The translations under genes were made by a program, and so were the position numbers. A DNA stretch of 64,000 nucleotides from Zygnema cylindricum (lineage: Eukaryota > Streptophyta > Zygnematophyceae > Zygnematales > Zygnemataceae): positions 7,501 to 71,500 of the forward strand of contig JBBHKE010001938.1 of the NCBI GenBank assembly GCA_037447655.1. Reading direction: 5' to 3'. Under the pieces are notes generated by a model, which was given only the letters and a program-made list of their open reading frames with translations, had not been told where the DNA came from and searched no databases. How positions within the stretch are numbered: position 1 is the first letter of the stretch; each line of letters starts with the position of its first letter. Below are positions 13-39,835 of this stretch, in pieces.

Positions 13-1611
13 TCACCCAATACAATTCGGTACTCTCTGTCTGCTTGAGTTAATACACGTGGTAACACAAATAACACGGCCGATATTCCACGTACTTCCA
101 GTTCCGACGCAGAGACCGGCACCTGTCCCTAAACACTGTATCCATGTTTTTGTGGTCCGGGTGCCGCAAAAACGCTTGATTACGCTCGAACATGTGTCCG
201 CAGATTGCCATTTATAATACCGTACACATGCGGTTGGCGCTTGTGACTGATAACTCAAGCAGTACTGTCACATGGAAGAGGATCCAAAAATGCAAATTTG
301 GTCAGTTTAAAGAACAGAGCTTGATGATGGTTAAAACTAGAATGGTTTTTGTACAGCGTCAAGGAAAAGTGTGAAAGCTTTACCGGCAAACCGACTACTA
401 GATTGTTGCAGTTAATCCCTTGATTAAGTTCGAAAAATTCTCGTTTTGAGAGTTTGATGGTTTTCTTTCGAAGCGACTTGCACCTCTTCTTGTCTAGATC
501 AGCAGCTGTGACGTAGTCCACTGCTACACACAACTTAGTGTTGCCATCGGGAGTACCTTTCTCCACACACACCTAGAGTTGGAGCAGCACAGGGATGCAA
601 AAATTAAGACGGGAGTCTTGTAATCTTCAAATCCTCAGATTGCCATATTGTGACATTGCAAAATTGCAACATTGTCACGTTGTGACATGTGACAGTGTGA
701 AATTGTGACATTGTGACTTTGTTACAGTGAGGCGAGATTTCAAGGAGGTGGACACACAATACCAACAACTAATCGTCGTATGCAATTTTTACTTGAGAGC
801 AAATGAAACTTACTTGCTGGCCTTTTGAAAGAGTCGCGTCCGTACAATCTAGGCCGGGATTCATTATGGCAAGAGACCCCGCAGTCAAGCTCAAGTCGGC
901 CTCGATAGACAGACAAGTGTCGCCCTGAACACGTCACAGCTTAACTAGTCAAGCAGTGGTTTTGCATTAACTTTCAAACAGACAAAACAAACGTAACAAT
1001 GGCAGTTTTGTTTTAACAACGACATATAGTTCTGAACAAGAAAATGTTGAAAATGAATGAAAAAATTTGAGAAATCGAAAGGCAAGTCATTCACCTTTTG
1101 CACGGAGTACATAGTGTTGCAAACTGCGTTCAACGCGGTCGGAATAATGAGAACATCTCCCGGTTTTAGGGACGAACAATCCTGCAAAACGAAAAATAAA
1201 AATCCATTTCAATTAAGCAAAGAAACGGTCTCACATCTTATGCCTAATCTCAATCCACAGCGTGAACTAATCGTCAGATCTCCTCCATAAAACAAGCAAA
1301 ACAAGCAAACCCTTCAAAATATAAACAAAGTCACGTGCCTATTTCTCACAATATAGACGCAATAGACAACATCCCAAGTTTTCCAAGCTCCATCAAATTA
1401 TAAACCTTCAAAATTTTCCAAAAAAACCCAAAATAAACCTGAAAGAGCTTAAAACCCTAAGGACAAAAGCCTGGAGAACTGGCCTCTACCTTCAGTGGAT
1501 TGACTGCCAGGAGCTGCCTTATGGTGATTCCAAAAGCCACCACGAGGATCTTACAAGTATCACCATTTTGGAAAGTATAATTAAAAGGCAGAAGGCCAGT
1601 GACTTGATTAG
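13..1611 (-). other. Four LysM-like modules (exons 11-15)
   Basis: LysM cores span exon junctions. Module 1 joins 1611-1490 ('YTFQNGDTC') to 1181-1095 ('LKPGDVLIIP'). Module 2 joins the end of 1181-1095 ('YSVQK') to 924-814 ('GDTCLSIEADL', 'MNPGLDC') and 'VCV' of the next exon. Module 3 is in 572-384 ('FFELNQGINC'). Module 4 is in 246-13 ('YKWQSADTCSSV'). LysM binds N-acetylglucosamine-containing glycans. Modules 3 and 4 are more divergent and lack the canonical GDT. A stop follows at 13-15; a further exon beyond the window cannot be excluded. Confidence 0.75.
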
Positions 1612-4600
1612 CTGCATCAAGAAGATTATTTTTTTCAGTTTAGTACATTTCTGATTTATTTTGTTACACAGATCACCATCATCAGTGTGGTCCACAATAC
1701 TTAGAGACTACATCTATCTATCGGCATTAACATGGTTAAGAAATTTGGACCAACATTAGTGTGAAATAACAGTTGAAACATTACAAAACATTACAAACAC
1801 AACACACATTGGTGTGCTTGATTTTGCAAAGACATGAGAAGGTAAAGGAGAAACTGACAGCTACATTGCTTTGGAAAACAGAAAACTTACGTGAGACACA
1901 TTTTTGCTGTCCTAGGCTCTTGAGGGAAAGGGAGAATTAAAAGTGAAACTGCTTTCGGAAAAAGAAAAACTTACGCGAGACACAAATTTGTTGTCCTTGA
2001 CTATTGAGGGAAAGCACATAGCCTCTGAAGCAGGTGCAGTGGTAGGAGCTTGCGCCCTCGTTCACACACGATCCCGCCAAACACGGATTTACAATGGATG
2101 TTCCGCAAATGTCATCTGAACCGCAACACATTTTCATTAAAAACACTAAACACTAAAAAACAGCAGAAATTTAAAATGGATCCAAAATGTCACGTGAACC
2201 GCAACACATTTCCATTAGAAACATTAAACAATAAAAAACAGCACAATGGATGTTCCTCAAATGTCATTTGAATTGCAACACATTTCCAATAGAAACATTA
2301 GACACCAAGAAACAGCACGAACTTAGATTGAATGTTCTGCAAATGCCATCTGAACCGCAACACCTATTCATTAGAAACATTTAAATTTAGATGTTCCGCA
2401 AATGTCATCAGAACCGCAAAAAAAAATCGTTAGAAACATCAAACACCTAAAAACATGGATTTAGAATGGATATTCCGCAAATGTTCATCTACTCCATAGC
2501 ATATTTTCATTACACGGTAAACACTTGTTCGACAAGGGAAAGAAAAAGGAAAACAATGCAAAACTTGAGGGATATTATGCTCACAAAAAAACAAATAGAC
2601 AAATTCTTCGGCTTTCTGTTACTTCAGTTTTCTTTTATTTTAATCTCTCAGTTCTGTTTTTTGTTGGATACATAGATTGGTACTTACTTGTGACGCAAGT
2701 TTCCGTGCCGTCTGTATTGTTAATGTTAACAAAATCCGTACGACACGTGCACGAGTAAGAATTCCCGGAAGCCAAACAGGTTCCACTTCCGCACGGATTG
2801 ATTGGCCCGCAGAGGTTGCTGCTCAGAGCTGACCGGGAAAAAAAAAAACACGTGAAAAACGCAGAGTGAAGCAAAACTGGTCGTCAGCAAAGAGAATAGA
2901 TAAAAAAAACTTCTGTAAAATTTTATGTTTTTTTCGATTTCCATTCATAACGTCACGATCGAAAAGTAAGACCATTACCGTTCGATTGCTTGCTTCAGAG
3001 TAGAAATCCAACGGTCCATCATAGAGTTAAACGCTTTTGACTGCCTGAAACATGTTTTAACTCTGATAACGATGGGCGGTGTAGTGTTGTGTATCGAGTT
3101 GTATCAAACCGATGTCCAATGCGGGCATGGGAATTGCTACCGACGTATGTAATTTTCACGATTTTCAAAAAACGACCGATATGGCAAAGTCAGATATGCT
3201 GGTGTTGGGGATGTTCTGTGGTGTGGCGATCTCATTCTTTTTGCCGATGTCACATCTACGCGACACCGATTCATTCACGAGATACTGATTTTATCGACGA
3301 GGTGGATGATGCCACATATGAAATTCGATGTGCATCAAAAAACCATATCGGTGCACCAACATATCGCATACCAATGTGCATCGATTCGCAACACAAAAAG
3401 CCAAACAAGACTAGGAAAAAAAAGCCGGCAAGTTCCGGTTGTACATAGTATGACCTATAACTGTATTGAATCCTATGGAGCCTTGAATACTTAGTATATT
3501 AAGATGGTTCGTATCTTTTCTAATTTGGAAGAATAGCTAGCATACACTGCAAGCACAACAAAACCGAGGGCTAGGTGAAAGATTTCGTGAAAAAGGAGAA
3601 AGCAAAAAAACAAGGAAAGAGGGACTAACAGGCAGAAACGGGGTAGATTGAGTTCACGCTCCCAATCCCGCAGATTCCTCGCTGGATCCGTGAGTGTCCC
3701 CCAAGGCCCCACGTTGGGCCGTACGAATTTCTTACGATCCAGAAGTTTACACCACCTTCCGTTCCGTAACCAACAAGCGTTACAACATGTGAGAGCATGG
3801 AACCCGGCATACACTGCCGTTGGATATCCGTAAAAATGTTCCACTGAGAAACAGCGACAGGCCAAAAAAAAAAAAAAAATGGAGCATGGTGAGACACTGA
3901 CACTCTTTTTGCAAGCTATAGCCTCTAACTTAGAAAAAAAGAAAATGAAGAAGAAAATGCAGAAAATTTTGTTAAAAAGAGCAGGAGATAAAAAGAGAGA
4001 TCCGAAACTCACAGAAGTCCACATTCTGAAGGATTCAGGCATGGTCATATAAACCACAAGGGGCTGCTGAGCCAATGCTGCAAGAAGGGCCGCCTCGTTC
4101 CAAGGTCCGATCTGCTCGTATGCCGTAACCCGAACGATGCCTGGAACCTCTAGCTGATGAACATGCAAACCATGAAACCATGTCAACAATACTCTATAAT
4201 CATGAAACCATGTCAACAATACTCTACAATCATGAAACCATGTCAACAATACTCTACAACCATGAAACCATGTCAACAATACTCTACAACCATGAAACCA
4301 TGTCAACAATACTCTACAACCATGAAACCATGTCAACAATACTCTAAAACCATGAAACCATGTCAACAACACCCTAAAATCCTAAAACTATGTCAGCAAC
4401 ACTCTAAAACCATTCAACAACAGTGTAACTATAAAACGAGATCAACAGTGCTAAAAATTCGAAACGATGTCAACCACGTCATCGTAAACTCTAAATGTCA
4501 GAATTTTAAACCACGCAAAAAAAAAAAAACTTTTACAGCCTCACTCTGCGTGGTGCAATGCGCGTCCCTACCAGTGAACAAAAACACAATCGTACTAGTT

Positions 4601-7600
4601 TTTGAGTACGAAATATACAATTAATTCGTGTTCAGTACGAAAAGTGAACCACGACAAAACCAAAAGTTCGTACTCTTCAAAGGAATGTACTTTTATTCTA
4701 TTTTTCGAAAGCCGCCGTACTTTACATTTCATTTTGTACGTTTTCATTTCGTAACTCCGTACCTTGCAAGTAGAAACCACTCCTTGGTAGGCACCGTAGC
4801 TGCCAGTTGTCGCTACGCCATTGGGCAAACTGGCGAGGCTCTGCATGGTGGCCTCGGGCCAACTGCCGCCGCACGATCCGCCGCAGTCCAAAGCCTGCTC
4901 TTCTGATAACGACAGAGGAGCGCCACCTGTCACGCGGGTCCGGAGGCCCTCCACGGAAGCCACGACAGAGAAAATCGAGCAGGCACCTGCAAATAGCAGC
5001 CATGTCGGGCAGACATTTTAAGAAACTGAAGCAGTTTTAAAAAACATGTTATACTCATAACTTATACTAGTTCACAAATATAAACATTAATTATGAAGAC
5101 CACAACCGATCGGAGGGGGAAAAAAAAAAGCGGTCGGAAAAAAGCTGTAAGTTTGAGGAAGATGGTATGTTCATATAGAGAGGATTTGTTTGTTTGGTGC
5201 TGTTAGGGTTCAGGGATAGCTGGGTGCAAGTTAGTTACCACAAAAAAGCTGGTTTTTGGTGTCGTTGGAGTATAAGAGTCTCCAATCTATGGCGGAAGGA
5301 AGAGGGGAGAGGACGAGGCTGGCGTGGCGGGAAAAAAGGTTAAGTTTGGAGGAGGTCGGGGGAGGCGTGTTGGAGACCGGAAAAGTAAGACCGGAGGGAG
5401 CTGCATGTAAAAAGGCCTTCATTAAAAATAAACTTTAGCTTCATAAAATGGTATTTTCTAGGATGTGGTGCAAAAGCTTCAGGAATGAAATAACATTCGA
5501 GAAAAATCTGTAATCAAACTCAGAAGTGCATCTACACCAAAAGTACTGAGAGAACAACAATTAGAGTAGAGAACAACTTATACAACATAATGCAGTGTAT
5601 ATTTCAAACATATAAATAAAATATAAGGAGAAAATTATTTCCACGATTAGTTGGTTTTGATAAAGGCGAATTCCGTGATAACTTTACATCATTTAAAAAA
5701 GGTGCAAAAGCCACATAGAAAACCCAATGGAAAAATCCACATTCTCTAAAGAAAAAGGTGGCACATTTACATGAAAGTGTATTAAAAGAGGATGGTCCAG
5801 CTGGCAGCCAGAGCTGCTCTCCCCTCAATCCACACGCTTGCTGAGTCAGCATAGATCCGCTGGTTCCGACAGCATGGAGACAGAGGCCAGAAAAAACGGA
5901 ACGGAACTGAACAGCGGAGTCGGAAGGCCGCACATAAATCAGATCCCAAAGCTGCGTCGAAGTTGTTAAACAATCTGGAGAAGAAACAACAAATTCCGAC
6001 ACAGAAAACGAGAAATGTGAGGGAACTTGAAAAATAAATCATCCAACAAATATTTACCAGTCCAGAAGAAAATTAATTTTACACTGTTTTACAAGCGCAA
6101 ATGATGTGAGATTGTTTTAGTGTTTTGAAAGTCGAAACTGACCCGAATGGATCATTGAAGCTCCACTAGGCTTTTTAGTATTTGACATATCTAAACACTT
6201 TGTTTGAAGAGTTTCCTGGAAACGATAGAAGCCACCCATTGGTTGGAGGAGCCAAAGGCCTCCAATGTTGTTATCGAAACCGTTAGAATCTGGAAAGAAA
6301 GAAAAAGAAGCGGAAAGAAAATCGGAAGGAAGATGTAAGCATAAAATCATGGTGTTGAATTCGACTACGCACACAAATGTTTGAAAAAAAAGCAAAGTTG
6401 AAATATACATCGTTTGATAGTACATTTGTCAAAGTTCAAAAGTTTAATGGTGGGCTAAATGCGAAGCCAATGCAATCTAAGAACAAGAAACAAAAGTATA
6501 AAGTTTAAACAGACGAAAACAATGAAGCAATAAACAAAAAGAAAAAAAAAACAGTGAAATAGTAGTTAATCGATTAATCAACAATCCAACAGTAAAAGTA
6601 AAACGGTAAAATAAAAAGTTACCCAATCAAATAATCAAAGAATAAACCCAAAAATCAACATACCAACAAACCAACGAAATAACGAGCGAACGAAACGAGA
6701 AAAAGAGAGACCAATAAAAAGAGTCCTTATTTCGTCTTACATGCCGAAAGTATAATTGCGGCGCCTTTGGTAGAAACATTGTTAGAGGCTGCCCAGGCAT
6801 TTGAGGACAAAGATGACGTCACCAGGAGGCTGCCTTCTGAAGGAGACGTCCACGCCGGAAAAGCTGTGTCTGCGATGCCGCACAGAAAAAGGCAAATTAT
6901 GCCGCAGAAAAAAGGCAAAATTTATGGCACAAAAAAGCAAAATATGTATGCCAAAGAAATAGACGAGATTTATACGACAGAAAACAACAAAACCTATGCC
7001 ACAAAGAGGTGTTATATTTATGCCACAAAAAAATACAAAATTTATGCCACAGAAAAGTCCAAAAAAGGATGGGATCCATAAATCACGGAACCTCTTTCCT
7101 TTGCAGCATTCCCACCTTTCCTGTTTCACATCGCCTGTTCCAACTAATATAATTCATTTTTCCTAATATCTCATCCATTCATCCCCCCCCCCTCTCTCTC
7201 CCCTATCCTCTACGATCAAATTATTTCTTCTCTCCCTTCTCTCAACCTCTCTCTAATCTTCCTGTTCCCCTCTTTCCAATTCCTTCCTCCTCTTTCCCTC
7301 CCTCCCTCTCTCTTCTTCCATCCTACAACCTCTGCCTCCTTCCATCTTCTCCCTTTGAGCCCCTTCCCTTTTCTACTACCTCCTCTAACAGCGTCGGCTT
7401 TATCCTCCCTCTCTCTCCCTCTCAATTAAACTTCATCCTCCAACTTTCTATCCTTCAGGCCTATTCAATTCTTTTCTGACTCTCTCATTAACCTCCCTCC
7501 TCTCTCTCCCACTTCACACTGTCTACATTCTAACTCTATCTTCCCCCTTCCTTCCTTTCCTTTTAGCCTCTAATATTTGAAGCATTATCCTCTCTTTCCC

Positions 7601-9376
7601 CTTTCTTCTCCCTTCACTTCTAAATATCCCTTTCCTTTCTCTCCGCTCTTCCCCCCTCCTCTCCCTATTCCCTTCCTCCCTCTGTCTCCCTCTCTCTCCC
7701 TCCCACTGCCTCTCTCCCTCCCTCTCCTTCCTCGAGCTCCCTCCCACTTCCACTCTCTCCCTTCCTCTGCCTCTCCCTCCCTATCCCCCCTTCTCCCTCG
7801 CCCTCCCTCTCCCTCCCTATTCCTTCCTCTTCCTGTCCCTCTCCCTCCCTCTCGTTCTCTCCCTCTCTCGCTCCCTCCCCCACTCTCTCTCTCCCTCTCA
7901 CTCTCTCCCCCTCTCTCCGTCTCTTTGTCTTTCCCTCCCTCTCTCCCTCCCCTTCCCTCACGTTTTTCTTTCCTCTCTTTCCCATTCCCCCTCATTTCCC
8001 TTCCCTCTCTTTTCCCTTACCTCTCTTTACCCTTCCCTCTCTTTTCCCTTCCCTCTCTTTTCCCTTCCCTCTCTTTCCCCTTTCCTCTCTTTTCCCTTCC
8101 CTCTCTTTTCCCTTCCCTCTCTGTTCCCTTCCCTCTCTGTTCCCTTCCCTCTCTTTTCCCTTCCCTCTCTTTCCCATTCCCTCTCATTTCCCTTCCCTCT
8201 CTTTTCCCTTACCTCTCTTTACCCTTCCCTCTCTTTTCCATTCCCTCTCTTTACCCTTCCCTCTCTTTTCCCTTCCCTCTCTTTTCCCTTCCCTCTCTTT
8301 TCCCTTCCCTCTCTTTTCCTTTCCCTCTCTTTTCCCTTCCCTCTCTTTCCCCTTTCCTCTCTTTTCCCTTCCCTCTCTTTTTCCTTCCCTCTCTTTTTCC
8401 TTCCCTGTCTTCCCCGTTCCTTCTCTTTACCCTTCCCTCTATTTTCCATTCCCTCTCTTTCCCCATTCCTTCTCTTTACCCTTCCCTCTCTTTTCCCTTC
8501 CCTCAATTTCCCCTTTCCCTCTCTTTACCCTTCCCTTTCTTTTCCCTTCCCTCTCTTTGCCCTTTCCTCTCTTTTCCCTTCCCTCTCTTTGCCCTTTCCT
8601 CTCTTTTCCCTTCCCTCTCTTTTCCCTTCCCTCTCTTTTCCCTTCCCTCTCTTTTCCCTTCCCTCTCTTTTCCCTTCCCTCTCTTTTCCCTTCCCTCTCT
8701 TTCCCTTTTCCCTCTCTTTACCCTTCCGTCTCTTTTCCCTTCCTTTTCATTCCCCTTCCCTCTCTTTTCCCTTCCCTCAATTTCCCCTTTCCCTCTCTTT
8801 ACCCTTCCCTTTCTTTTCCCTTCCCTCTCTTTGCCCTTTCCTCTCTTTTCCCTTCCCTCTCTTTTCCCTTCCCTCTCTTTACCCTTCCCTTTCTTTTCCC
8901 TTCCCTCTCTTTGCCCTTTCCTCTCTTTTCCCTTCCCTCTCTTTGCCCTTTCCTCTCTTTTCCCTTCCCTCTCTTTTCCCTTCCCTCTCTTTCCCTTTTC
9001 CCTCTCTTTACCCTTCCGTCTCTTTTCCCTTCCTTTTCATTCCCCTTCCCTCTCTTTTCCCTTCCCTCAATTTCCCCTTTCCCTCTCTTTACCCTTCCCT
9101 TTCTTTTCCCTTCCCTCTCTTTGCCCTTTCCTCTCTTTTCCCTTCCCTCTCTTTTCCCTTCCCTCTCTTTTCCTTTTCCCTCTCTTTACCCTTCCGTCTC
9201 TTTTCCCTTCCCTCTCTTTTCCCTTCCCTCTCTTTTCCCTTCCCTCTCTTTCCCCTTCCCCCTCCCTCCCTTTCTGTCCTTCCATCCCCACCTTTACGCT
9301 TCGCTCCATTTGCAGTCGCCAGGGCGGCCGCCGCCATGGCTGCCGCGAGGAAGAAAATGTGTGCCCGCCCGCCCAT
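13..9376 (-). CDS. Secreted lectin-papain-EGF-LysM multidomain protein (15-exon gene model)
   Basis: Exons on the minus strand: 9376-9298, 6869-6741, 6289-6143, 5974-5771, 5400-5239, 4986-4763, 4153-4013, 3843-3630, 2828-2688, 2115-1975, 1611-1490, 1181-1095, 924-814, 572-384, 246-13. Every junction has AG/GT sites and consistent phase, giving about 774 codons with a stop at 13-15. Order by residue: signal peptide 1-24, ricin-type lectin 27-187, Pro/Ser-rich linker to 219, C1A papain domain 220-433, EGF 434-481, EGF 481-528, four LysM modules 528-774. Known for the families: lectin and LysM bind glycans, papain cleaves proteins. The inferred role is an extracellular or vacuolar glycan-anchored protease. 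No I29/ERFNIN propeptide is seen. The exon 8 to EGF link assumes a GTTAGT donor at 3629; if it is unused, a TAG ends the protein after the papain domain. The last exon could splice outside the window. Confidence 0.8.
1830..2010. repeat. Tandem duplication across the EGF-2 5' splice site
   Basis: About 86 bp at 1925-2010, covering the end of the EGF-2 exon and its GTAAGT donor, is repeated at about 1835-1920 with moderate divergence. The second copy keeps a donor-like 'CTCACGTAAGT' in the intron. It could act as an alternative donor, but this has not been tested. Confidence 0.6.
1975..2828 (-). other. Two EGF-like modules (exons 9 and 10)
   Basis: Exons 2828-2688 and 2115-1975 are each exactly 141 nt and phase 1-1. 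Each carries six cysteines in EGF order: C440, C446, C451, C460, C462, C478, and C484, C492, C497, C507, C509, C525. The 'NPCGSGTC' and 'NPCLAGSC' segments with 'YxCxC' are typical. Equal length and phase suggest the modules arose by exon duplication. EGF modules commonly mediate protein interaction in secreted proteins. Confidence 0.8.
2086..2480. repeat. Tandem repeat of about 65 bp at the EGF-2 acceptor
   Basis: About six diverged copies. Each starts with the first ~20 nt of the EGF-2 exon plus its splice acceptor and continues into 'CGCAACACATTTCCATTAG'-like sequence. The first copy at 2086-2130 holds the real acceptor (exon begins at 2115). One other copy (around 2340) keeps the AG dinucleotide in the same context. 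Confidence 0.7.
3630..5400 (-). other. Papain-like cysteine protease domain, C1A (exons 5-8)
   Basis: Exons 5400-5239, 4986-4763, 4153-4013 and 3843-3630. The mature start 'LPSAIDWR' is at residues 220-227. Oxyanion Gln is Q237 and nucleophile Cys is C243 in 'CGACSIF'; the usual CGSCWAF Trp is replaced by Ser. The family 'LDCGGSCGGSW' stretch follows. Catalytic His is H381 in 'SHVVTLVGYG' and Asn is N401 in 'VRNSYGPTWG'. Spacing C to H 138 and H to N 20 fits papain. The active residues look intact, so an active enzyme is plausible. The absence of an I29 propeptide is unusual. Confidence 0.85.
4157..4420. repeat. 30-bp minisatellite next to the exon 7 acceptor
   Basis: About nine tandem copies of a 30-bp unit beginning ATGAAACCATGTCAACAATA, nearly identical at 4165-4350 and decaying to the right. 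The array starts within about 10 nt of the intronic side of the acceptor at 4154. On the gene's sense strand each unit contains TTGAC, which resembles a plant branch-point core. Confidence 0.85.
5771..6869 (-). other. Ricin-type beta-trefoil lectin module (exons 2-4)
   Basis: Three phase 1-1 exons (6869-6741, 6289-6143, 5974-5771) encode residues 27-187. The hallmark QxW motifs of trefoil subdomains are visible as Q126-L-W128 and Q172-L-W174. Repeated 'CLxxxGTSGSMLTQQ'-like and 'CLDMS..GASMI' segments fit lectin subdomains. The family binds galactose or other glycans. This is a carbohydrate-binding module on a protease; nothing resembling a ribosome-inactivating catalytic chain is present. 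Symmetric phase-1 exons are the kind that can be shuffled. Confidence 0.75.
6876..7066. repeat. 24-bp degenerate tandem repeat at the exon 2 acceptor
   Basis: Seven to eight imperfect units of the type GCCACAAAAAAGYAAAATTTAT. They begin about 6 nt from the acceptor of exon 2 (6869). On the gene strand the units read as T-rich tracts followed by GTGGCAT, so the array extends the polypyrimidine tract. Confidence 0.65.
7140..9290. repeat. Long homopyrimidine/homopurine tract with 16-bp units (intron 1)
   Basis: The plus strand is almost purely C and T for about 2.1 kb. From about 7985 to 9255 the basic unit is 16 bp (CTTTTCCCTTCCCTCT) with larger blocks duplicated. Long open frames through it only reflect the repeat composition. 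On the host gene's sense strand it is purine-rich and lies inside intron 1. Such mirror-like Pu/Py tracts can form triplex (H-) DNA. Confidence 0.9.
9298..9376 (-). other. Exon 1: signal peptide
   Basis: The ATG at 9376-9374 opens a short positive N-terminus (GGRAH) followed by a hydrophobic Ala/Leu/Phe run (IFFLAAAMAAAALATA) and a small-residue cleavage region near residues 22-25. This is a typical secretory signal. A GTAAAG donor at 9297 (alternative GTGGGG at 9291) ends the exon in phase 1, matching the phase-1 start of the exon at 6869. Upstream on the minus strand a TGACGTCA-type motif lies near 9530 and an AT-rich TATTAATATA near 9620. These could be promoter elements but are unproven. 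Confidence 0.6.
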
Positions 9377-10359: not shown

Positions 10360-12191
10360 CTGTACTGTACTGTACTGTTCGAACAATGCGTAAAGTATAT
10401 GACACGTGTTTACCGTACGATTAAACTCCCGTCAGCACTGTTTAAAAAAAAAGAAACCGTCCGAACAACGCTAGGAAAAAGGTAATTTGTGTAACGACAA
10501 TATTATAAACTAAAAAGTGAGGTTCTTTACGGTAAACAGTAATTTCTGTACCATTTCGTAATGTTTTACTTTTTTTCCATAAATACAGCATGTTTACTGG
10601 GAATCTATGCAGATTCTACAAACAGGCTTACACTGCTACACTTGGCATACAAGCGTCAACACTGACCGTCGGATGTTGTACTCTTTCGCATTCCGCGACG
10701 CAATCGCTGTATCCAGCCAGTTGTGACTACAGTACTGTACTTACCTGTACCTTACCTCAAGGAGTACACTGACCAGGAACTGGATGTGTACGGATGAGCA
10801 ATGACAACCATGTGCCCCTTCGGACAGGTGGATGCAATCCAACGATAGCCACGAGAAAATCTTTGCGGACGATATGCTCTCGCGCGCCCTTTGCCATCCG
10901 TTGACCTTCGTGGAAAACATTTAGGGTTTTAAACATTACAGCACAAGTACGTACACTGTCGTAGTACGCTAGAAGAAATTTTAGTATTTTACATTTTAGT
11001 ACGGTCGTACAGATTTTTCTGAGAAAATTTTCGGTCAGTTTTAGTGAATCCTAAATTTTTATGCTTCCCGAAATAACGCGCCTAGCAAAATAAAGTGGTC
11101 CGCTCAGCTTCCCGTGGCAGTCGCGATCTTTGCGCTGTCGCATTTTGCCGTACAAGCTTTGCTGGATCGAAGGGCCCTGAAGGAGCGGAGCTCGTACAGT
11201 ATTTTGTCCTCTGGAAGTTTGTGACGCGTTTACCGTTGCTAACAATGTTGTTTTCCACCTCCTGTAAACCTGTGAAACTCATGTGGCTTGCGAAACTATC
11301 ACGGGCAGGATCACCTGATTTTTTGTCTTTTAATAGATTCTCAGTTGCAGTACTGTACACCGTATCTTTTTCTGTGTATGCATGTGGATGTCAGTGCAGC
11401 GTCAGCCATTTCAGGCAGGTCTGAAAAAACAATAGGGAATATTCATCCGAACCACAATTTGATTGGACAACCACTTTGACGCATTGCGGAGTTTCGTTGC
11501 GGCGTCAGCTTCGTTGGAAAAGGTTTATTGGGGGACAGAATTCCCAGACAGGGAATCCTCAGTATATTTATAGCGTTTTCATGATTTCTTACGCGTTTCA
11601 GTACGGAATTGCGTAGGACTACGACAAACTTGACGGCAACGAACTGTAATCGACTAATCTCAGAGTTTACTTTTGACGACGATGTAAGCGCGCGCGTCCC
11701 TTTCCTAATCGGTCCGTTACGATTTCCGCGACTGCCATTCACGTTCATGTCCGCGTTCCAACCTTGAGTTCGGGTGATAATAGGCAAGAAAAGCTTTTTC
11801 TTGTCCTGAACCTATTCGTATGCAGAAAGAATCCCCAGTTCGTCCGGAACAGACCAATACAAGGCCTCTATCTCTCCATCGCTTTTTCCTGCTGCCCCTC
11901 TCCCTTTTCCCGCTATTCTCTTTATCCTAACCAATCTTTCTATCCCTCGCTTTTCGTTACCTTCTCTTTGGGCGTGTCCCATTGTAATCGTTACTTAGCA
12001 AACTTATTTTGTATTACAGCGAAGATTTTGCGCACACTTTGTTCAAGTCTCCTAAAATTGTTACTTAAGTTTATGGCGACGTTGATAATGCTTGTGACGT
12101 TTGTCGACGTCTACAATCTGCATTGTCGCACCGCGTTTTTTGAAATTGCGTATAACGTCGCATGTCTTTGCGTGACATTGTAGACGTACAA

Positions 12192-12741
12192 TGTTAGGAT
12201 TTGGTACTGAGAACTCTGGTAGCGACGAGTCATTCTCGTAGCTAAGGTAGTGACGACCAGCGACGAAGTAGTTTCGTCGCTGGATAGTTGAAGTACCAGC
12301 GAAGAAGAAGTTTCGTCGCTGGATATTTGAAGTGACGTGAAATGAAATGTTTGTTTCATTTCACGTATGTTTGAATTGTACTATAGAAGTGACGTGGAAA
12401 TTTCTTAGTAGTTTCGGTTCACGAAAGTTCAAGACGTACCGCGTGATTCAAGTTGGTTCGCGGTTACGCGTACCGTGTTGTTCAAGTCGGTTCAAACTTG
12501 TCGGTCGTTCATTTCACCGCGTTGATTCTTACACGTATCTAGTCGTGTACCTATATATATTGGTTGTGACTTTTTGGTAGCATTATCTTTTGTTGGTGTA
12601 GCTTATTAAGGAGGCGTAGATAGATCAGAAGTAAAAAGAAAGAAGAAAAGAAGTTGTATTTGCATTGTGCTTAATATATTGAATGTTTTTTGGAGGAACA
12701 CCATTGTCGTGTGTGTGTTTTATTTGGTTTATAATCTTTCA
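12192..12741 (+). repeat. Copia-1 5' LTR
   Basis: Starts TGTTAGGATTTGG and ends TAATCTTTCA. It contains the perfect 27-bp hairpin 12257-12283 (arms CCAGCGACGAA/TTCGTCGCTGG, 5-nt loop) and a second hairpin of the same arm sequence at about 12294-12321 with one decayed base. A TATA-like TATATATA is at about 12550. Confidence 0.95.
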
Positions 12742-12760
12742 ATTGGTGTCGGAGCTGGTT
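12742..12760 (+). promoter_or_regulatory. Copia-1 primer-binding site
   Basis: Immediately after the LTR, ATTGGTGTCGGAGCTGG resembles the TGGTATCAGAGC site complementary to the 3' end of plant initiator tRNA-Met, with a few changes. Confidence 0.6.
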
Positions 12761-12779
12761 ACTGGCAACAATTGCCGGT

Positions 12780-15700
12780 ATGGCGGAGAAAGGGAAATCC
12801 CCGGCAGAACCTAGTGGAGGAGCTAGTGGGGGAGTTAGTGGAGGAGGAGTTACAGGGACACAATATGATGAGTATGACGAATGGGGGGAGAAAAATGTGA
12901 AGATGGACGAGGGAACGTTTGAACGCTTTCAAGAGTTTCTCAAAACACAAGAAGATGATGGAGATGGAGGAGTAAGTGGAGACTCACGCAACTCTAAGAA
13001 AATAAAGAAAAAGAAGGGGAAATCTAAACTTTATGAGGAAGAGGAGGAGAGCGAGGATGATGATTATAAAGTGTTTAATAAAACCATTGTCTTCACGGGT
13101 TCCAACTATGCAATTTGGAAGAGATACATTCGAGGAGCATTCACACCGAAAAAACTTTGGGACATCGTTATCGGGGAAGAAACACGACCGGATCCTTCCG
13201 TAGATCCAGCCGGAGCACATAAGTGGGACAAGAAAGATATGGCGGCCTCCACCGCACTTATACAAAGTTGTGCTAGTTCTATGCATGAACACCTTCTAAC
13301 TCATGATAGGGCTTTTGATTGTTGGACCGCTTTGCAAAATGCGTTTGAAAAAAGATTTGAGGCAAATGAAAATTATCTCTTTGAGGAGTATATTGGGTTT
13401 AGAATGAAGGAGAATGAGTCCATTGATGATGGAGTCAAAAGGTTTAATGTCATCATAGAACAACTTAACTCACTCAATAACTTCCCTACAGAAAAAGAGA
13501 GGTTGTTTGTTTTCATGAGGAGTCTTCCAAGCAAGTTTGCGGTAGCAAAGGAGGTCATCAAGGGGCGAGAGAAACAAACAATGGCATACGCTATCAATCA
13601 CTTGAAAAGTACAGAGAAGGAGAAAGCAACACCGAAAGAGGAAAACAAGGGATCATCCTACCAGAGTCATCAAGAGGAGGATGACGGAGGAGCTTACAAC
13701 TTTAGGGGATCTAGAGGGAGAGGAGGTGGACATCGTGGACGAGGAGGCAGGTCACAGGGCCCAGGGAGAGGCTCATATCAACGTGATACCTCTCATATGA
13801 CTTGTTACAATTGTAACGAGATTGGGCATGGCTCTTTTGAATGCCCAGACAAAAGTAAACAGTGTAACGTTTGTCATAAATGGGGACACACTGGTCGCGG
13901 TTGTTATCAAAACAAGGGAAACAATCGCGGAGGGGGACAGTTTAGAGGCGGAGGAAGTGGAGGAAGTGGAAATAGCTCATCAGGTAGAGGGGATTTTGTT
14001 GGGGATGGGCCAATGGGACAGGATCAAGAATTTTTCGTTTCACTTATCGAGGAATCACAGGAAAAGGAGGATATTCTATTTCACACACGAGGCAAGGAGA
14101 GTAAGGGAAAATTTAACAGTTGGATCATAGATTCAGGTGCCACACATCACATGTGTTCAGATCCAGGACTATTCACTGACATTAGAAAACTCACTATACC
14201 AAAATCCATCATAGTGGCTAATGGTTCAATGATGGTCATCGATACAGTGGGAACAGTACGGTTGGATCTACCAACACAAGATAGGGAAGGGAAAACTAGA
14301 GTCAATCGAGTACGCTTTAACAATGTGCTTTATAATCCGGGGGGGTGCATTAATCTCTTAAGTGTTCCACAGCTTCAAAAGAAAGGAGGAAGAGCCACAT
14401 GCTTGGAAGGAGGTAGAATCATTTTGAGTAGTAAAACAGGGCCATTTGCAGAAGGCATTGTGACTGAAAATATGCAAAGTAGACTGATTTGGAGGAAACC
14501 AGAAAATAGGACGGCAGATGAAGAAGGTCATCTTCATTCGGCAGAAGTTAACAAGGAGGACCTAACGTTGTGGCACCATCGTATGTGTCATACTTCAGAG
14601 AGTAACATTAAGGAGATGATTCGTCATGGGGCGGTTCGAGGGCTAGATGTGGCAACAGGAGAGAAGGTCATTGGATGTGTTGGATGCACAAAAGGGAAAC
14701 ATAAAAGGAAGCCTCATCCGGTGAAAGATCTTCAATTCAAAGCGATTGCCCCTCTAGATCTAGTCCATGTAGATCTTTGTGGGGACACACATCTAGAAAC
14801 CATTGGAAAAAATAAGTACATTATGGTGATAGTTGATGATTTCAGCAGAAAGACATGGGTATATCTTTTAAAAGCTAAGTCAGACGCTCTTGAAACATTT
14901 AAAGACTTTGTGGTCATGGCAGAGAGGGAAAGTGGGAGGCAGGTAAAGGCGGTACGTTCAGACCGAGGAGGTGAATTTCTTGCTTTCGCCGATTACTGTA
15001 AAGAGACGGGGATTAAGCAGCAGTTCACGGCTCCTTATTCCCCACAATCAAATGGAATTGCAGAGAGGAAGAATCGAACATTGCAAGAGATGGTACGCGC
15101 CATGCTCCATACGACGAAACTCACGCATCGTCTTTGGGGAGAAGCAATCAGGGCAGCTAACCATATTACCAACAGGAGAATAAACTCCGCTTTGGGCAAC
15201 AAAACACCGGAGGAACTTTGGAGTGGACAAACACCTACGGTAAAACACTTAAAGATTTGGGGATGTGAGGCTATGGGATACATAGAGGAAAGAAATCGGG
15301 AGGGAAAGTTTGCTGCCCGGTCATGGGAAGGATATTTTGTGGGATATAGTGAGAACTCAATGCAGTATAGGATTTACAACCCAGTCACTAGAAGGGTTAA
15401 AGAGTCTAGAAATGTGGAGTTTAATGAGAACTTGGAATGGATGGTGAAGGGAGCTAATGAGTCCAAACGATCTCAAGATTATGAGGAGGAAAGTCATTAT
15501 GAGAAGTTCACTGGAGAGGAGGAGGAAGAGGACGAAGTTTTGTCAGAGGTGGGGACGAAGAAAAATGTGCGTTTTGTAGAGAAACCTTTAGAGAATGTTT
15601 CGACACCTAAGCTTAGCGGCACCAAATCCCAAGGAGACAATGTCACCAGAGAATCATCCACAGGCATTGACAACGTGACATCAGAAGAGACACCCCTAGA

Positions 15701-17450
15701 GAAGGAGGATGATGACAAGATTGAGCACAGTGATTCGGATAAAGAATTTGCAGATGACGTACGGAGAAGTAAAAGATCCACTAAAAGGAAGGCACCGGAA
15801 CGATTTTCACCTGAACAGTCATATAAAAAGCAAACTAGCTACCAGAGGGCAATTTCCGAAATTAGAGAAGGAAGGGCGGAATCCTTTCTCTTATGAAAGG
15901 CAATTACAAAAAATCGTCCGGCGGATCCTCAATCATACCAAGAGGCTCGAGACTCGGACGAATGGGAGGAGAAGTGGAAACCGGCGTTTATCAAAGAATT
16001 TAATTCTGTAAAATCGAATGGATGTTTTGAAGAGGTAGATTTACCGGTTGGTAAAAAGGCGATTGACTCAAAGTGGGTTTTTAAGACAAAGACGGGAGCT
16101 TCGGGAGAAATTCTTAAGTATAAGGCGCGGTTAGTATGTAAAGGCTTTCAGCAGAAGGAGGGTATTGATTATTCAGAGACTTTTGCTCCTGTGGTTAAGT
16201 TTGATTCTTTGCGAGCAATTATTGCAATGGCGGCGGCGGAAGGAATGCATATCCAACAGATGGATGTAGAGACCGCTTTCTTAAATGGAGAATTAGAAGA
16301 GGAGGTCTATATGAAAATTCCAGAAGGAGTTCTTGGAAAGAATGGAAAAGTATGGAGGTTGTGGAAAGCTTTGTATGGTTTGAAGCAGGCACCAAGAACA
16401 TGGAACCATAAGCTTCACAAGGTCTTACTAATTTTGGGATTTAGGAGGCTTACTGCAGATTGTGGAGTGTATATTCGGGGAGAAGGTAGGGACATGGTAA
16501 TTTTCAGTGTTTACGTAGATGATTTCATTTCTATCTCTCACAACTTGGATTTACTTGGAGAATTAAAGATTGAATTTCGGAAGTATTTTAAAATCACAGA
16601 CTTAGGAGATGCACAATACATTGTGGGAGTTCAGATTCAGAGAAGGAGGAACGGTGATATTAAGTTAAGCCAAGAACAATATGCAAAAGAGGTACTTGAA
16701 AGATTTGGGTTTTTAGATTGTAAGCCACTTGGAACTCCCCTTGATCCTCGTGATAAACTTTCTAATTTTGTTAAAAGTCTCGACGTTGATGCCCCGTATA
16801 GGGAGGCGGTCGGAAGCTTAATGTATTTGAGTGTCGGTACTAGGCCAGACATTAGTGCCGCAGTGAGCGTCGTTAGTCGATATTGTAGCAATCCGAAAAA
16901 AATACATTGGGAGGCAGTGAAGAGAATCTTCATATATTTGCCTGGAACACTTAGTCTTGGAATTGTTTATAGGAAGGGTGAGGGCTTGAGTTGTTATGGA
17001 TATTGTGATGCCGACTATGGAGGAGACCATGATACAGGAAGGTCTACGTCAGGATATGTGTTTTTACTTGCAGGAGGAGCGATCTCGTGGAATTCCCGTT
17101 TGCAGCCTACTGTGGCACTTTCATCAACGGAGGCGGAGTATATGGCTGCGTGTCATGCTGCGAAGAATGTTGTGTGGATTAAAGAATTTCTATCGGAGGT
17201 TGGAGTGGAAAAAGAATGCATGCAAATATTAAGTGATAATATGTCTTCCATTGCACTTAGTAAAAATCCTATTTTGCATAAGCGCACTAAACACATTAAA
17301 ATTCAGTGGCATTTTGTTCGAGATTTGGTTGCGGAAAAAGAAGTTGAATTTTCGTTTGTTCCTACAGAAGAACAAGCTGCTGATATGTTAACCAAAGCAG
17401 CATTAAAGGAAGTCTATGAAATGGGAAAGAAATTAGTTGGCATGGAGTAA
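12780..17450 (+). CDS. Copia-1 gag-pol polyprotein, with one in-frame TGA
   Basis: One reading frame of 1556 codons. It has an acidic/Gly-rich N-terminus, a UBN2-type gag domain (about 100-280) and an Arg/Gly-rich stretch. Two CCHC zinc knuckles follow (about 342-375: CYNCNEIGHGSFEC and CNVCHKWGHTGRGC). Protease active site DSGA has D451. An HHCC zinc-binding pre-integrase region and integrase Asp/Asp/Glu (about D665, D728, E762) precede RT with YVDD (about 1245) and copia RNase H (CDADYGG, STEAEYM, LSDN). Codon 1039 (15894-15896) is TGA between integrase and RT; reading continues in the same frame with no other break. It replicates the element through an RNA intermediate. The TGA is either a fresh inactivating mutation (CGA to TGA is possible) or a readthrough point. 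Confidence 0.9.
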
Positions 17451-17471
17451 GAGGGGGCTTTGAGTATCTCA

Positions 17472-17484
17472 GTAAGAGGGGGAA
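17472..17484 (+). promoter_or_regulatory. Copia-1 polypurine tract
   Basis: GTAAGAGGGGGAA directly precedes the 3' LTR. A similar GTAAGAGGGGG lies about 28 bp upstream. It primes plus-strand DNA synthesis. Confidence 0.8.
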
Positions 17485-18034
17485 TGTTAGGATTTGGTAC
17501 TGAGAACTCTGGTAGCGACGAGTCATTCTCGTAGCTAAGGTAGTGACGACCAGCGACGAAGTAGTTTCGTCGCTGGATAGTTGAAGTACCAGCGACGAAG
17601 AAGTTTCGTCGCTGGATATTTGAAGTGACGTGAAATGAAATGTTTGTTTCATTTCACGTATGTTTGAATTGTACTATAGAAGTGACGTGGAAATTTCTTA
17701 GTAGTTTCGGTTCACGAAAGTTCAAGACGTACCGCGTGATTCAAGTTGGTTCGCGGTTACGCGTACCGTGTTGTTCAAGTCGGTTCAAACTTGTCGGTCG
17801 TTCATTTCACCGCGTTGATTCTTACACGTATCTAGTCGTGTACCTATATATATTGGTTGTGACTTTTTGGTAGCATTATCTTTTGTTGGTGTAGCTTATT
17901 AAGGAGGCGTAGATAGATCAGAAGTAAAAAGAAAGAAGAAAAGAAGTTGTATTTGCATTGTGCTTAATATATTGAATGTTTTTTGGAGGAACACCATTGT
18001 CGTGTGTGTGTTTTATTTGGTTTATAATCTTTCA
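17485..18034 (+). repeat. Copia-1 3' LTR
   Basis: Same length as the 5' copy. The one change I noticed restores the second hairpin arm (CGACGAAGAAG against CGAAGAAGAAG in the 5' copy). Confidence 0.95.
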
Positions 18035-33399: not shown

Positions 33400-34441
33400 T
33401 GTAACTCTGAGACCTCCATAAGTCCTCAGAGTGGACAGCTTCCAAGAAGCCTCTAGGATAATCCTGACCCCTTTGTGATTAAGCAAAGATAACTGCCACC
33501 CTGGCAGACAAAAACGCTGACCAACTTCACCCCTGTGAAGACAAGACTCCCCTGAGTCGATAGCAAAAAGAATCTTTGAATTTGCTCCCCTGAGCAGTAA
33601 GTTATGGGGGGTCAAAGTTGACCTTTTATACAGAAGCTCTCTGGGAGAGGGGGTCCTATCTTCTAATTTTTCTAAGTCCTATCTCTCTCACAGACTCTAT
33701 CTACTGATGTACGGAACCAATCAGAATTGAGTTCCGTACGTAAAAGTACAGCCGCCGGTGTACTTTATGTACGGACATTGTACGACATGGCCAAAATGTC
33801 GACACATGTCAAATCCGGATTCGGTGCCATGATCTCCGGAGATTCTACGATCCAACGGAATTTCGCCACGCGTCATCCGATGTGGCGATGGCCACAAACC
33901 GCCGAAATCTTCCTCCGTGATCTCGGCGCTAATCCCGGCCGTCCGATTAAATTCAGATTTAATCGTGGCCGTAATAAATACATGCGCGGTATTTGTTTCA
34001 CTTCCGAAACAAATGCGCGGTATTGATTCGTAATCCGTACTATCATTCGTACCGGATCTATGCATCCCGTAAATCGTAACAGTTAAATGAATTATCGTAT
34101 GTATTCTAATTTATATAATTATCAAACTACGTAGTACGTAATACTACTGCTAGATCTAACGGCTAAGGCTACCGGCTATTTCCTATCTGCCGGCCGGTAG
34201 GTACAAGGATCAAATCCTGCCGCCGGCACATTCCTTTTAAATAAATAAATAAATCCTAGTATAAAATTCCCGTAAACCTCAGGATAGCCAAGGTAGCCAT
34301 GGCTCTAGCTTCCTCTCCAATTTCTCAGTGACTGCGACAAGTTTGAGATTTGGAGAGAGAAGTTAGAGGTAGACTGCCTCGGCTTCTTTCTATATTTCTA
34401 TTCAGACCTAGAAAATACTAATAAAACCATTAGTTTCTACA
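33400..34441 (-). repeat. Copia-2 3' LTR
   Basis: TG...CA ended, 1042 bp. Carries a plus-strand (antisense) tRNA-like segment at about 34155-34229 and a TATAAAAGG-type box near 33627 on the minus strand. Confidence 0.95.
34155..34229 (+). other. tRNA-like segment in Copia-2 3' LTR (antisense)
   Basis: Plus strand: A-box-like TAACGGCTAAGG, B-box-like GGATCAAATCC, and an intervening CCGGC stem. Same position and orientation relative to the element as in the other LTRs of the family. Confidence 0.4.
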
Positions 34442-34454
34442 CTCCCCTTATTTT
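34442..34454 (-). promoter_or_regulatory. Copia-2 polypurine tract
   Basis: AAAATAAGGGGAG on the minus strand lies directly between the gag-pol stop codon (34455-34457) and the 3' LTR. Confidence 0.85.
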
Positions 34455-37400
34455 CTAGTCAATCTTTAATTTCAGACCACACTTCTCCCTGCAAAAAATT
34501 AGCTTAGGGGAAGGCACAGGTTTGGTCATCATATCTGCTACCATCTCACTATCTGGTCTGTACTCTAAACTGATTATTTTGTTTTCTACTTTCTCTCTAA
34601 CAAAACTGAGTCTGATGTCCATGTGTTTGGCTTTAAAATGGTGTTTAGGATTGGCAGAGATAGCGATTGCTGCCTGATTATCACAAAATATTTTCTGCAC
34701 ACCACTCTTAAGGTGACCAAGCTCACCAAGCAAAGACTTGACCCACATCAATTCTTTTACAGCAGAGCAAGAGGCCATATACTCAGCCTCCATGGTGGAC
34801 TGAGCAATAACCTTTTGCTGTTTGCTACTCCAACAGCAAGCCCCATCACCCACATATAATACATATCCAGAAGTACATCTCCTCATCGGAGCATCACCAT
34901 AACTGGCATCACTCCAAGTAGTGATGTCAGTATTCTCCCCACCCAAATGCAACCATAGATCTCTAGTTCCTACCAAGTATCTAAGGACTCTCTTAGCTGC
35001 CTCCCAATCCTTCTTAGTGGGAGCATTTAGACTTCTACTCAGCACTCCTACAGCTGCAGCTAAATCCGGCCGGGTACAATTCATAAAATAGATTAGACTT
35101 CCCACTACTTGCCTGTAAGGAATAGTCTGCATGAACTTCTGTTCATCAGGAGATAATTCCTCGTCTAAGACTATGACTCCTTCTTCCTCACTCCCCTCAC
35201 TTCCCTTCTTCAACTCCATTGGAGTTGTACAACTATTAGCTTTATCCATTTGAAATTTTTCAAGCATGTTCCCTATTGCTTCTTTTTGAGTCAATCTTAT
35301 AATTTTCCTTTTTCGGTCTCTCTCTACTTGAATTCCCAAAATATATCTTGCTTCTCCCATATCCTTCATTTCAAATCTCCCCTTAAGATCGGTTTTCAGT
35401 TTGTTAATTTTTTCCATTGATTTACTTAATACAAGCAAATCATCAACATAAATTGCAATAAATATCAAACCTTCCTCATCTTCGAAAACATAGATTGAGT
35501 GATCTGAGCTGATCCGAATATATCCCAGACCGGTAAGAAACTCATCAAGCTTCTTATTCCATTGTCGAGGTGCCTGTTTCAAACCATAAAGAGATTTAAT
35601 CAGCCGGCATACCTTACTCTCCTCTCCTTCTTCCACAAACCCTTCGGGTTGTCGCATGAAGATCTCCTCTTCCAATTCTCCATGCAAAAAGGCTGTTTTT
35701 ATGTCCATCTGGTGCACTTCCATGTCTTCCGCCGCCGCTAAACTGAGAAGTATGCGGACGGAGGGAAATCTGACCACCGGAGCAAAGGTTTCCTCGTAGT
35801 CAATTCCTTCCTTTTGTGTAAATCCCTTTGCCACTAATCTGGCCTTGTAGCGCTCGATTGTGTTATCTGGGTTCAGTTTTAGTTTGAAAACCCACTTACA
35901 ACCGATTGGTTTTCGGTTAGGTGGACAGTCCACCAGCTCCCAAGTATCGGCTGCCATGATTGAAGCCATCTCCTCATTGATGGCTGTCTTCCATCGGTTT
36001 CTTTCTGGACAAGTCATCGCCTCTCCATAAGTTTGAGGTTCATCTTGATGAGATAGTTTAGTTACCTTGTTAATAACCTGTTTTTCTTGCAGTCTTTTGC
36101 TACTTCTCCTCCCCCCCTCAAAATCTGAGGCCGGAATAGATGGTTCTCGTGGATTCTTTCGAACAAACTCGGCTTCTCCCCTATCCCTTGATTCCGAATC
36201 AATTTCCACCACGTCTTCCGCTTCGAGTAGAGTTGTCACTGGAGTTTCCACAGCCGAGTCCTTTTCGGTCTGATTTGTTCCTGCAAGAATGTCATCTTCT
36301 CTAAAACCTGGATAGTTAGGAAGCTCAAAGTCATCGGAATTTTCTGACTCAAATCTGATTTTTACTGACTTCGTATATTTGAAGGGATCTACAGACTTTC
36401 CTTCATCCATAACTACTAGATGCTTTACTAAGATTATATCTTCCCTTTTTAGATCATAAACTCTATATCCTTTAACATCTTCATCATATCCTAATAAGTA
36501 TCCTGGTTTTCCTTTAGGATCTAGCTTCCAATTGGACCGATCAGTATCTAGACTGAATACTTGACTGCCGAAAACCTTTAAATGAGATAAGTCTGGTTTC
36601 CGGCCTGTCCATCTCTCATAAGGTGTTTGATCTTTTATAGCTGAAGTAAGAACTCTATTTTTGAGGTAATTAGCACAGTTCATTGCTTCTGCCCAAAACC
36701 TTTTTCCTATCTTCTTATCCGACAACATACTTCTAGCACTATCACTTAGTGTTCTATTTAACCTTTCAGCTACCCCATTCTGTTCAGGATTTTCTGGAAC
36801 TGTCTTTTGGTGTTGAACCCCATCTTCCCTCAGAAAATCCTCAAACTGGTTAGAAGTATACTCTCCACCATTGTCACTCCTTACTCTCTTGATTGGAGTT
36901 TCATGGAGTTTTTCGCTCCATGCTTTATATTGTCTAAAACAATTCTCAGCTTCGGACTTGTTTTTCAAAAAATATACCCGGGAATACCGAGACCAATCAT
37001 CAGTTATAGTCATCATAAATCTCTTCCCCCCCGGTGAGGGTACTTTAGCCGGTCCCCAAATATCTGTGTGTACTAGATCTAGAATTTTTTCTCCCTTATA
37101 GGTGGCTGACTTAGGAAAGGGTAATCTGTGTGCTTTACCTTGAGCACATCCACTACAATCACTTATATCATCACTCTCACTGAACTGAATCCCTTCCACC
37201 ACTCCCATCTTTTTCATCTCTCTTAACTTATCTAGATTCACATGCCCAAGCCTCTTATGCCACATCATAATATCATGAACACCAGCATAATAAAGTTTCT
37301 TCTTTTCATTACTTAAGATCAGCCTAAACATCCCATGGCTACCTTTCTCAGCAATGAAATAGACATCATCCTCAAAACTAGCAGTAAAGACTCCTTCCCT

Positions 37401-38813: not shown

Positions 38814-39835
38814 AAGTCCTCAGAGTGGACAGCTTCCAAGAAGCCTCTAGGATAATCCTGACCCCTTTGTGATTAAGCAAAGATAACTGCCACCCTGGCA
38901 GACAAAAACGCTGACCAACTTCACCCCTGTGAAGACAAGACTCCCCTGAGTCGATAGCAAAAAGAATCTTTGAATTTGCTCCCCTGAGCAGTAAGTTATG
39001 GGGGGTCAAAGTTGACCTTTTATACAGAAGCTCTCTGGGAGAGGGGGTCCTATCTTCTAATTTTTCTAAGTCCTATCTCTCTCACAGACTCTATCTACTG
39101 ATGTACGGAACCAATCAGAATTGAGTTCCGTACGTAAAAGTACAGCCGCCGGTGTACTTTATGTACGGACATTGTACGACATGGCCAAAATGTCGACACA
39201 TGTCAAATCCGGATTCGGTGCCATGATCTCCGGAGATTCTACGATCCAACGGAATTTCGTCACGCGTCATCCGATGTGGCGATGGCCACAAACCGCCGAA
39301 ATCTTCCTCCGTGATCTCGGCGCTAATCCCGGCCGTCCGATTAAATTCAGATTTAATCGTGGCCGTAATAAATACATGCGCGGTATTTGTTTCACTTCCG
39401 AAACAAATGCGCGGTATTGATTCGTAATCCGTACTATCATTCGTACCGGATCTATGCATCCCGTAAATCGTAACAGTTAAATGAATTATCGTATGTATTC
39501 TAATTTATATAATTATCAAACTACGTAGTATGTAATACTACTGCTAGATCTAACGGCTAAGGCTACCGGCTATTTCCTTTCTGCCGGCCGGTAGGTTCAA
39601 GGATCAAATCCTGCCGCCGGCACATTCCTTTTAAATAAATAAATAAATCCTAGTATAAAATTCCCGTAAACCTCAGGATAGCCAAGGTAGCCATGGCTCT
39701 AGCTTCCTCTCCAATTTCTCAGTGACTGCGACAAGTTTGAGATTTGGAGAGAGAAGTTAGAGGTAGACTGCCTCGGCTTCTTTCTATATTTCTATTCAGA
39801 CCTAGAAAATACTAATAAAACCATTAGTTTCTACA
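38794..39835 (-). repeat. Copia-2 5' LTR
   Basis: 1042 bp, almost identical to the 3' copy; antisense tRNA-like segment at about 39549-39623. Confidence 0.95.
39549..39623 (+). other. tRNA-like segment in Copia-2 5' LTR (antisense)
   Basis: Same as the segment at 34155-34229, with two base changes near the B box (TTCAAGGATCAAATCC). Confidence 0.4.

Follow-up and report, generated by a model that had tools for sequence, protein, structure and literature searches.

The window analysed here is a 64,000-nucleotide stretch of the genome of the streptophyte alga Zygnema cylindricum (positions 7501–71500 of contig C1453 in assembly G000, which holds 352.8 Mb in 2689 contigs). At its start lies a minus-strand gene whose predicted product, a single polypeptide, combines a beta-trefoil lectin of ricin-B type, a papain-like C1A cysteine protease, two EGF modules and an array of LysM modules. 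We re-derived the gene model from the sequence. Fifteen exons run from 9376 down to 13 and join into one frame of 780 residues followed by TGA, and 14/14 introns have GT-AG borders, with phases, in order, of 1,1,1,1,1,0,0,1,1,1,0,0,0,0. The splice sites and phases given in an earlier note on this DNA are thereby confirmed.

Homologous proteins bear directly on whether these exons form one gene. A protein search with the window protein retrieved P0001 (664 residues, 82% identical over 85%) and P0002 (744 residues, 55% identical over 95%), and a profile search retrieved P0008 (812 residues, 42% identical over 96%). P0001 starts within the lectin, its Met aligning with residue 115 of our model, and P0002 starts at about residue 43; in alignments, all three proteins pass unbroken from lectin through protease and EGF to LysM, the join of exons 8 and 9 included. 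Because the contigs from which P0001, P0002 and P0008 come are at most 3368, 3672 and 2925 bases long, respectively, and thus shorter than the roughly 6.1 to 6.9 kb that the matching exons occupy in the window, these sequences appear to be spliced or nearly intronless. An in-frame TAG (3625..3627) forms part of the intron 8 donor GTTAGT; since three independent proteins run across this join, we read the TAG as intronic and unused as a stop, and the locus as a single gene, as the earlier note had proposed. Searching the window with P0001 by tblastn recovered 12/15 exons (4–15), in consecutive order and all minus-strand, at 71–87% identity, together with one cross-match between the EGF exons. 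Given this conservation and the intact frame across 15 exons, we rejected a pseudogene. No other place in G000 exceeded 70% identity in any exon (whole-protein genome search, best 58 of 528 candidates), which makes it more likely that P0001 is the orthologue of a related species than that it is a paralogue. A protein search with residues 330–760 missed both P0002 and a further homologue, P0003, which the whole-protein search had found, so that it was not exhaustive and absence from it is uninformative.

The modules map onto the exons as follows. Exon 1 (9298..9376) carries the start codon and a signal-peptide-like segment (MGGRAHIFFLAAAMAAAALATANGAK), and a signal peptide is likely present. 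The lectin begins in exon 2 (6741..6869), which encodes the N-terminal half of the first trefoil repeat and to which P0008 aligns with 44% identity over 36 residues; exon 3 (6143..6289) supplies the GLW of repeat 1 and the start of repeat 2 (CLD), and exon 4 (5771..5974) the QLW of repeat 2 followed by repeat 3 with its own QLW. A linker, SKLNLFSRHAS, and the N-terminus of the C1A domain (IDWR...KNQLFC) share exon 5 (5239..5400). Exon 6 (4763..4986) carries the catalytic Cys243 (GACSIF), exon 7 (4013..4153) the middle of the domain, and exon 8 (3630..3843), with which the protease domain ends, His381 and Asn401. The acceptor of exon 7 is uncertain by 6 nucleotides, our model reading K-LE-VPG where P0001 has K-A-VPG. 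EGF modules 1 and 2 each occupy a phase 1-1 exon (exon 9, 2688..2828; exon 10, 1975..2115). In the LysM array, exon 11 (1490..1611) holds the bulk of LysM 1 (Pfam LysM at residues 539–582), exon 12 (1095..1181) its end and the start of LysM 2, exon 13 (814..924) the body of LysM 2, and exon 14 (384..572) the end of LysM 2 with a degenerate LysM 3, where P0003 aligns. Exon 15 (13..264) adds a degenerate LysM 4, the C-terminus and the stop TGA, and the C-termini of P0001 and P0002 coincide with that of the window protein. The least certain parts of the model are exon 1 and LysM repeats 3–4, although the third and fourth repeats are likely present. Scanning 9 kb of upstream sequence gave 7 candidate starts, of which the one at 9376 was the most hydrophobic, there paired with a donor at 9291; the donor of our model (GTAAAG at 9297) mismatches the donor pattern of that scan, and both donors are in phase. 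Two introns contain tandem repeats: intron 1 (6870..9297) consists mainly of a 16-bp unit, pyrimidine-rich on the plus strand, in 83 copies (7930–9264), and intron 6 has a 30-bp repeat at 4168–4413.

Pfam profiles place a ricin-B lectin, Peptidase_C1, EGF and LysM in this order along the joined protein. The E-values are 4.1e-7 for RicinB_lectin_2, 1.2e-6 for Ricin_B_lectin (29.2 bits, cut-off 29), 7.8e-35 for Peptidase_C1, 9.8e-5 for EGF (2 stretches) and 7e-17 for LysM (2 stretches; 61.6 bits against a cut-off of 20.9); P0003 has 3 LysM stretches. Against the PDB, the window protein matches actinidin at 1.3e-31 (phmmer) and a profile of 5 sequences matches ficin at 4.3e-45. The catalytic set stands in its papain context (Q237, C243, H381, N401), and papain Gln19, Cys22, Cys25, Cys56, Cys63, Cys95, Cys153, His159 and Cys200 are kept in 4/4 sequences (window gene, P0001, P0002 and P0008), all six disulphide cysteines included. 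An inhibitory I29 propeptide is typical of C1A enzymes, if not universal. The window protein has no Pfam match to I29 at E<=1, and the lectin and a linker of about 40 residues stand in its place. Within the trefoil, the QxW-type repeats read GLW, QLW and QLW; the QxW of repeats 2 and 3 is present in 4/4 sequences and the Trp of repeat 1 in 3/3, and repeat 2 retains the CLD Asp, a residue of the trefoil sugar site, in 3/3. In the PDB, the lectin region matches ThreeFoil, a designed trefoil (2e-6), while four antibody chains among its matches (0.0056–0.33) were taken as chance, and a ricin-B lectin is also above the Pfam cut-off in P0002. A CDtoxinA toxin identity was rejected: PF03498 stays below the cut-off in the window gene (0.002) and reaches 22.9 bits in P0002 against a cut-off of 22, which we attribute to a general resemblance of that family to trefoils. 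The order of modules announced in the earlier note, with a Cys-His-Asn protease and a lectin in place of I29, therefore holds, its signal peptide being likely; of the four LysM modules that it counted, two are found by Pfam and the third and fourth fall below its threshold.

Is this gene an isolated oddity? A genome search with the window lectin and linker gave 32 matches (70/70 candidates scored), 4 of which are the window gene itself. By position, a C1A exon has a trefoil or linker match upstream on the same strand at no fewer than 13 places besides the window: two each on C1638 and C2007, and one each on C41, C791, C2211, C695, C2476, C1920, C1552, C2241 and C120. Of the two places on C2007, the first is matched by the linker alone. 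The distance to the C1A exon ranges from 0.3 to 9 kb, and these places are known as exon matches, not as gene models. Lectin matches on C1179, C225 and C1525 had no C1A among the matches listed there. The succession from lectin or linker through C1A to the last LysM exon is seen in the window and on C1638, C2007 (two), C41 and C2211, and the last LysM exon (exon 15) has at least 23 other places in the genome, at 47–67% identity. PF14200 gave 0 matches on the whole genome, a search that misses even the window gene with its short exons and is hence uninformative. On C1638, the two lectin–C1A copies (76835–78801 and 83064–85030) are 6229 bases apart and have identical match scores, which probably reflects a very recent tandem duplication.

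The protease core also occurs, without the lectin, in a larger sister set. PF00112 has at least 150 matches above cut-off in G000 (150/150 among the best 150 of 303 candidates), all but 13 of which, counted by eye, cover the His/Asn half. We sampled 34 distinct C1A places: the two best (C1970 and C547; 3.2 kb each), 20 from ranks 4–29 (L009–L028; 10 kb or to the contig end, leaving out N-terminal-half matches, second matches per contig and a match on C327) and 12 lower-ranked ones (1.8 kb each). An EGF exon follows the C1A exon at 29/34 of these places (19/20 and 10/12), with no EGF match at C1970 and C547. Profile scanning of the 20 longer loci, for which some seeds came from 7 of the loci themselves, found plant-type leucine-rich repeats (LRRs) at 18/20, an LRR-cap/EGF exon at 18/20, the linker at 19/20, the C1A Cys exon at 18/20, the C1A His/Asn exon at 20/20, EGF at 19/20 and LysM at 16/20, with trefoil and hevein each at 0/20; in the antisense control, 2 loci showed a C1A match and 1 an EGF match. 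The modules follow the same order throughout the 20 loci, the sole exception being a stray LysM match amid the LRRs of L017, and such members therefore read LRR(n)-EGF-C1A-EGF-EGF-LysM. The LRRs lie on separate short exons; a regular expression found 1 match only, and they were recovered instead by tblastn and profile. Upstream stretches of 5 of these loci (L029–L033) contain more LRR exons, of the form NxLSGSIPSSIGQLTSL, and one stray antisense match (0.012). At L015, Pfam on ten frames gave C1A, EGF-type matches below cut-off and one LysM at cut-off. The window gene does not belong to this branch, having trefoil exons in the place of the LRRs, although by eye a KLNxFxRxAS-like linker precedes the protease in both. 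A tree of the His/Asn exon (about 70 aligned residues, midpoint root, deep nodes given no weight) likewise sets the window gene, P0001, P0002, P0008 and the low-ranked loci L040, L043 and L044 apart from the LRR loci, P0003 and P0005, and two of the three L-numbered loci in the former group (those on C2476 and C695) carry lectin exons.

The family thus has a C1A-EGF-EGF-LysM core without I29 that carries an exchangeable N-terminal part, either a trefoil or an LRR array with EGF. A hevein domain with a trefoil is likely a further such module. It is seen in P0008, the N-terminus of which has a hevein-like segment (PF00187, 8.4e-5 for the fragment and 0.014 for the whole protein, both below the curated cut-off); in the window, neither two regular expressions nor a tblastn search with the N-terminus of P0008 revealed a hevein exon of this kind. 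We also rejected a legume lectin as the module at this position in the expanded paralogues, as the corresponding segment of P0005 gave linker and C1A matches and otherwise rows at chance level.

We consider it reasonably probable that the window gene encodes a secreted, modular cysteine endopeptidase of this exchangeable-module family, acting in extracellular, glycan-directed proteolysis in defence or microbe interaction. The LysM tail would anchor the enzyme outside the cell on polymers of the N-acetylglucosamine type, such as those in the walls of fungi, oomycetes or bacteria or in fragments of walls; the N-terminal module, sitting in place of the inhibitory propeptide, would give a second specificity; and the papain domain would cleave proteins at the bound surface. 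Because the copies are many and diverse and have receptor-type front modules, a defence or microbe-interaction role is favoured, and judged from sequence the family points to an extracellular repertoire of this kind more than to housekeeping. The earlier suggestion of an extracellular protease directed at glycans is in this respect plausible.

Several observations weigh against this interpretation. The residue after the catalytic Cys, Trp26 in papain, is Ser in 4/4 sequences, and Asn175, kept in 3/4, is Ser in P0001, the closest relative, although Cys and His are kept there; given these two replacements, some members may have weak activity or none. In the lectin, the CLD Asp position of repeat 3 varies (His, His, Asp, Glu), with His in the window gene, and P0008 has no ricin-B Pfam match at E<=10, its lectin being seen by alignment alone. 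LysM repeats 3–4 are degenerate, and exon 1 is called from the sequence, with no homologue behind it. An AlphaFold model of P0002 (4 sequences) is poor (predicted local distance difference test, 39; predicted template-modelling score, 0.26); as modelled, the LysM array displays four beta-alpha-alpha-beta units. For the sister branch, the LRR calls come from tblastn with a generic consensus and from a profile, and a single-LRR exon of L015 (31 residues) has no Pfam match when searched alone.

Other roles for the protein would account for parts of these data. There is some, rather small, chance that the protease acts on the alga's own wall or mating structures, lectin and LysM binding the wall while wall proteins are remodelled in growth, wounding or sex. 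Volvox VcPap-11 offers a precedent, as far as the accessible text of that report goes (PMC2474614), but a family so large and diverse, with LRRs in its sister branch, fits varied foreign targets better. It seems improbable that the product is a largely non-catalytic glycan-binding protein whose C1A fold, set between lectin and LysM, acts as a scaffold or decoy: to the replacements of Trp26 and of the catalytic Asn can be added that of Trp177, which is Tyr or Phe in the same 4/4 sequences (Trp in P0003), but the retention of Cys25, His159 and Gln19 in all four, of Asn in three and of the disulphide cysteines speaks for an enzyme. In the mushroom lectin MOA (Marasmius oreades agglutinin), an N-terminal ricin-B trefoil precedes the protease, an order that the window gene shares (in order only), and to our knowledge MOA has neither EGF nor LysM modules. 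We give little credence to an AB-type chimerolectin of this kind, in which the lectin would carry the protease into grazers, as a lectin joined to a papain-fold cysteine protease is described to do in MOA and fungal papain-like chimerolectins (PMC4764322; PMC13324453). The accessible text of the same sources describes the fungal MOA protease as calcium-dependent and strongly atypical, whereas the window protease is a plain C1A enzyme (PMC4764322; PMC13324453); in addition, the EGF and LysM modules speak for wall anchoring, and MOA is absent from the 5 PDB matches of the lectin region. The best 60 of 171 PDB matches listed for the whole protein do not include MOA. Finally, the idea that a lectin-protease gene and an adjacent EGF-LysM gene have been falsely fused, with the TAG that immediately follows the protease domain as a true stop, can practically be set aside, since P0001, P0002 and P0008 cross the join and the same order recurs elsewhere in the genome.

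How does a protein of this build compare with known ones? Land-plant C1A proteases of the RD21 type have a C-terminal, cysteine-rich granulin domain and keep the I29 propeptide; the window protein also has a C-terminal cysteine-rich module, but with EGF and LysM instead of granulin and without an I29 match. Cathepsin C, represented among our protein-search matches by P0007, has a non-I29 N-terminal exclusion domain that stays with the mature enzyme. The window protein shares the presence of a non-I29 N-terminal domain, but the exclusion domain is not a lectin and cathepsin C has no LysM. P0005, from Closterium sp. NIES-65, has the same C1A-EGF-LysM core, preceded by a segment with a match to the LRR-cap/EGF exons found in the LRR branch. 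It differs in a legume-lectin-like segment (PF00139, E 0.0019–0.088 by fragment, below cut-off) between the LRR/EGF-like part and C1A, which may be a further type of lectin occupying this slot; its N-terminal part has a hAT-transposase-like match, so that a false fusion in the gene model is possible. Combinations of C1A and LysM, as in the window protein, have been reported in the green lineage and were not retained by vascular plants, and chlorophytes and/or bryophytes are reported to combine EGF with lectins of the GNA or ricin-B type (PMC6362431). The accessible text names no species for the C1A and LysM combinations, mentions neither a ricin-B lectin nor an EGF pair nor an LRR for that chain, and describes no large expansion (PMC6362431). 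The architecture had been put forward as unusual and as not known to have been described. Among titles and the starts of abstracts, with subscription journals thinly covered, we found no report naming a ricin-B-C1A-EGF-LysM or an LRR-C1A-LysM protein, but the gene is a member of a multigene family in its own genome, and fusions of C1A with LysM (PMC6362431) and of a mushroom lectin with a papain-like protease (PMC4764322) were already known from what is accessible of these sources. Taken as a whole, the earlier interpretation is partly supported.

Immune recognition in plants is viewed as the task of receptors with LRR or LysM ectodomains that signal via kinases. Here, receptor-type modules are wired to a protease in one secreted chain, in many copies, in a streptophyte alga. 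A more speculative extension, possible but tentative, is that the family forms a secreted recognition-protease-anchor repertoire, an enzyme-based extracellular counterpart to receptor-kinase immunity: recognition would act on the protease itself without an intermediate, and the recognition module would take the place of the propeptide. If true, this would be an untested branch of plant-lineage immunity; if the role lies instead in the wall or in mating, the family would still be a new means of directing papain proteases to glycans. Its members also form a natural set in which to study what keeps C1A enzymes inactive when an I29 propeptide is missing.

The remainder of the window contains mobile elements. 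Two appear to be young Ty1/copia-type elements: one at 12190–18034, with 552-bp long terminal repeats (LTRs) that are 99.8% identical and a coding part in two frames meeting at a stop near 15896, and one at 33400–39836, with 1043-bp LTRs that are 99.6% identical and a single frame of 1454 residues. Diverged LTR-like pieces (about 75%), noted with the latter, lie at 59.9 and 63.4 kb, and at 61451–62516 a 534-bp part of a gag-like zinc-knuckle frame occurs twice in tandem (99.8%).

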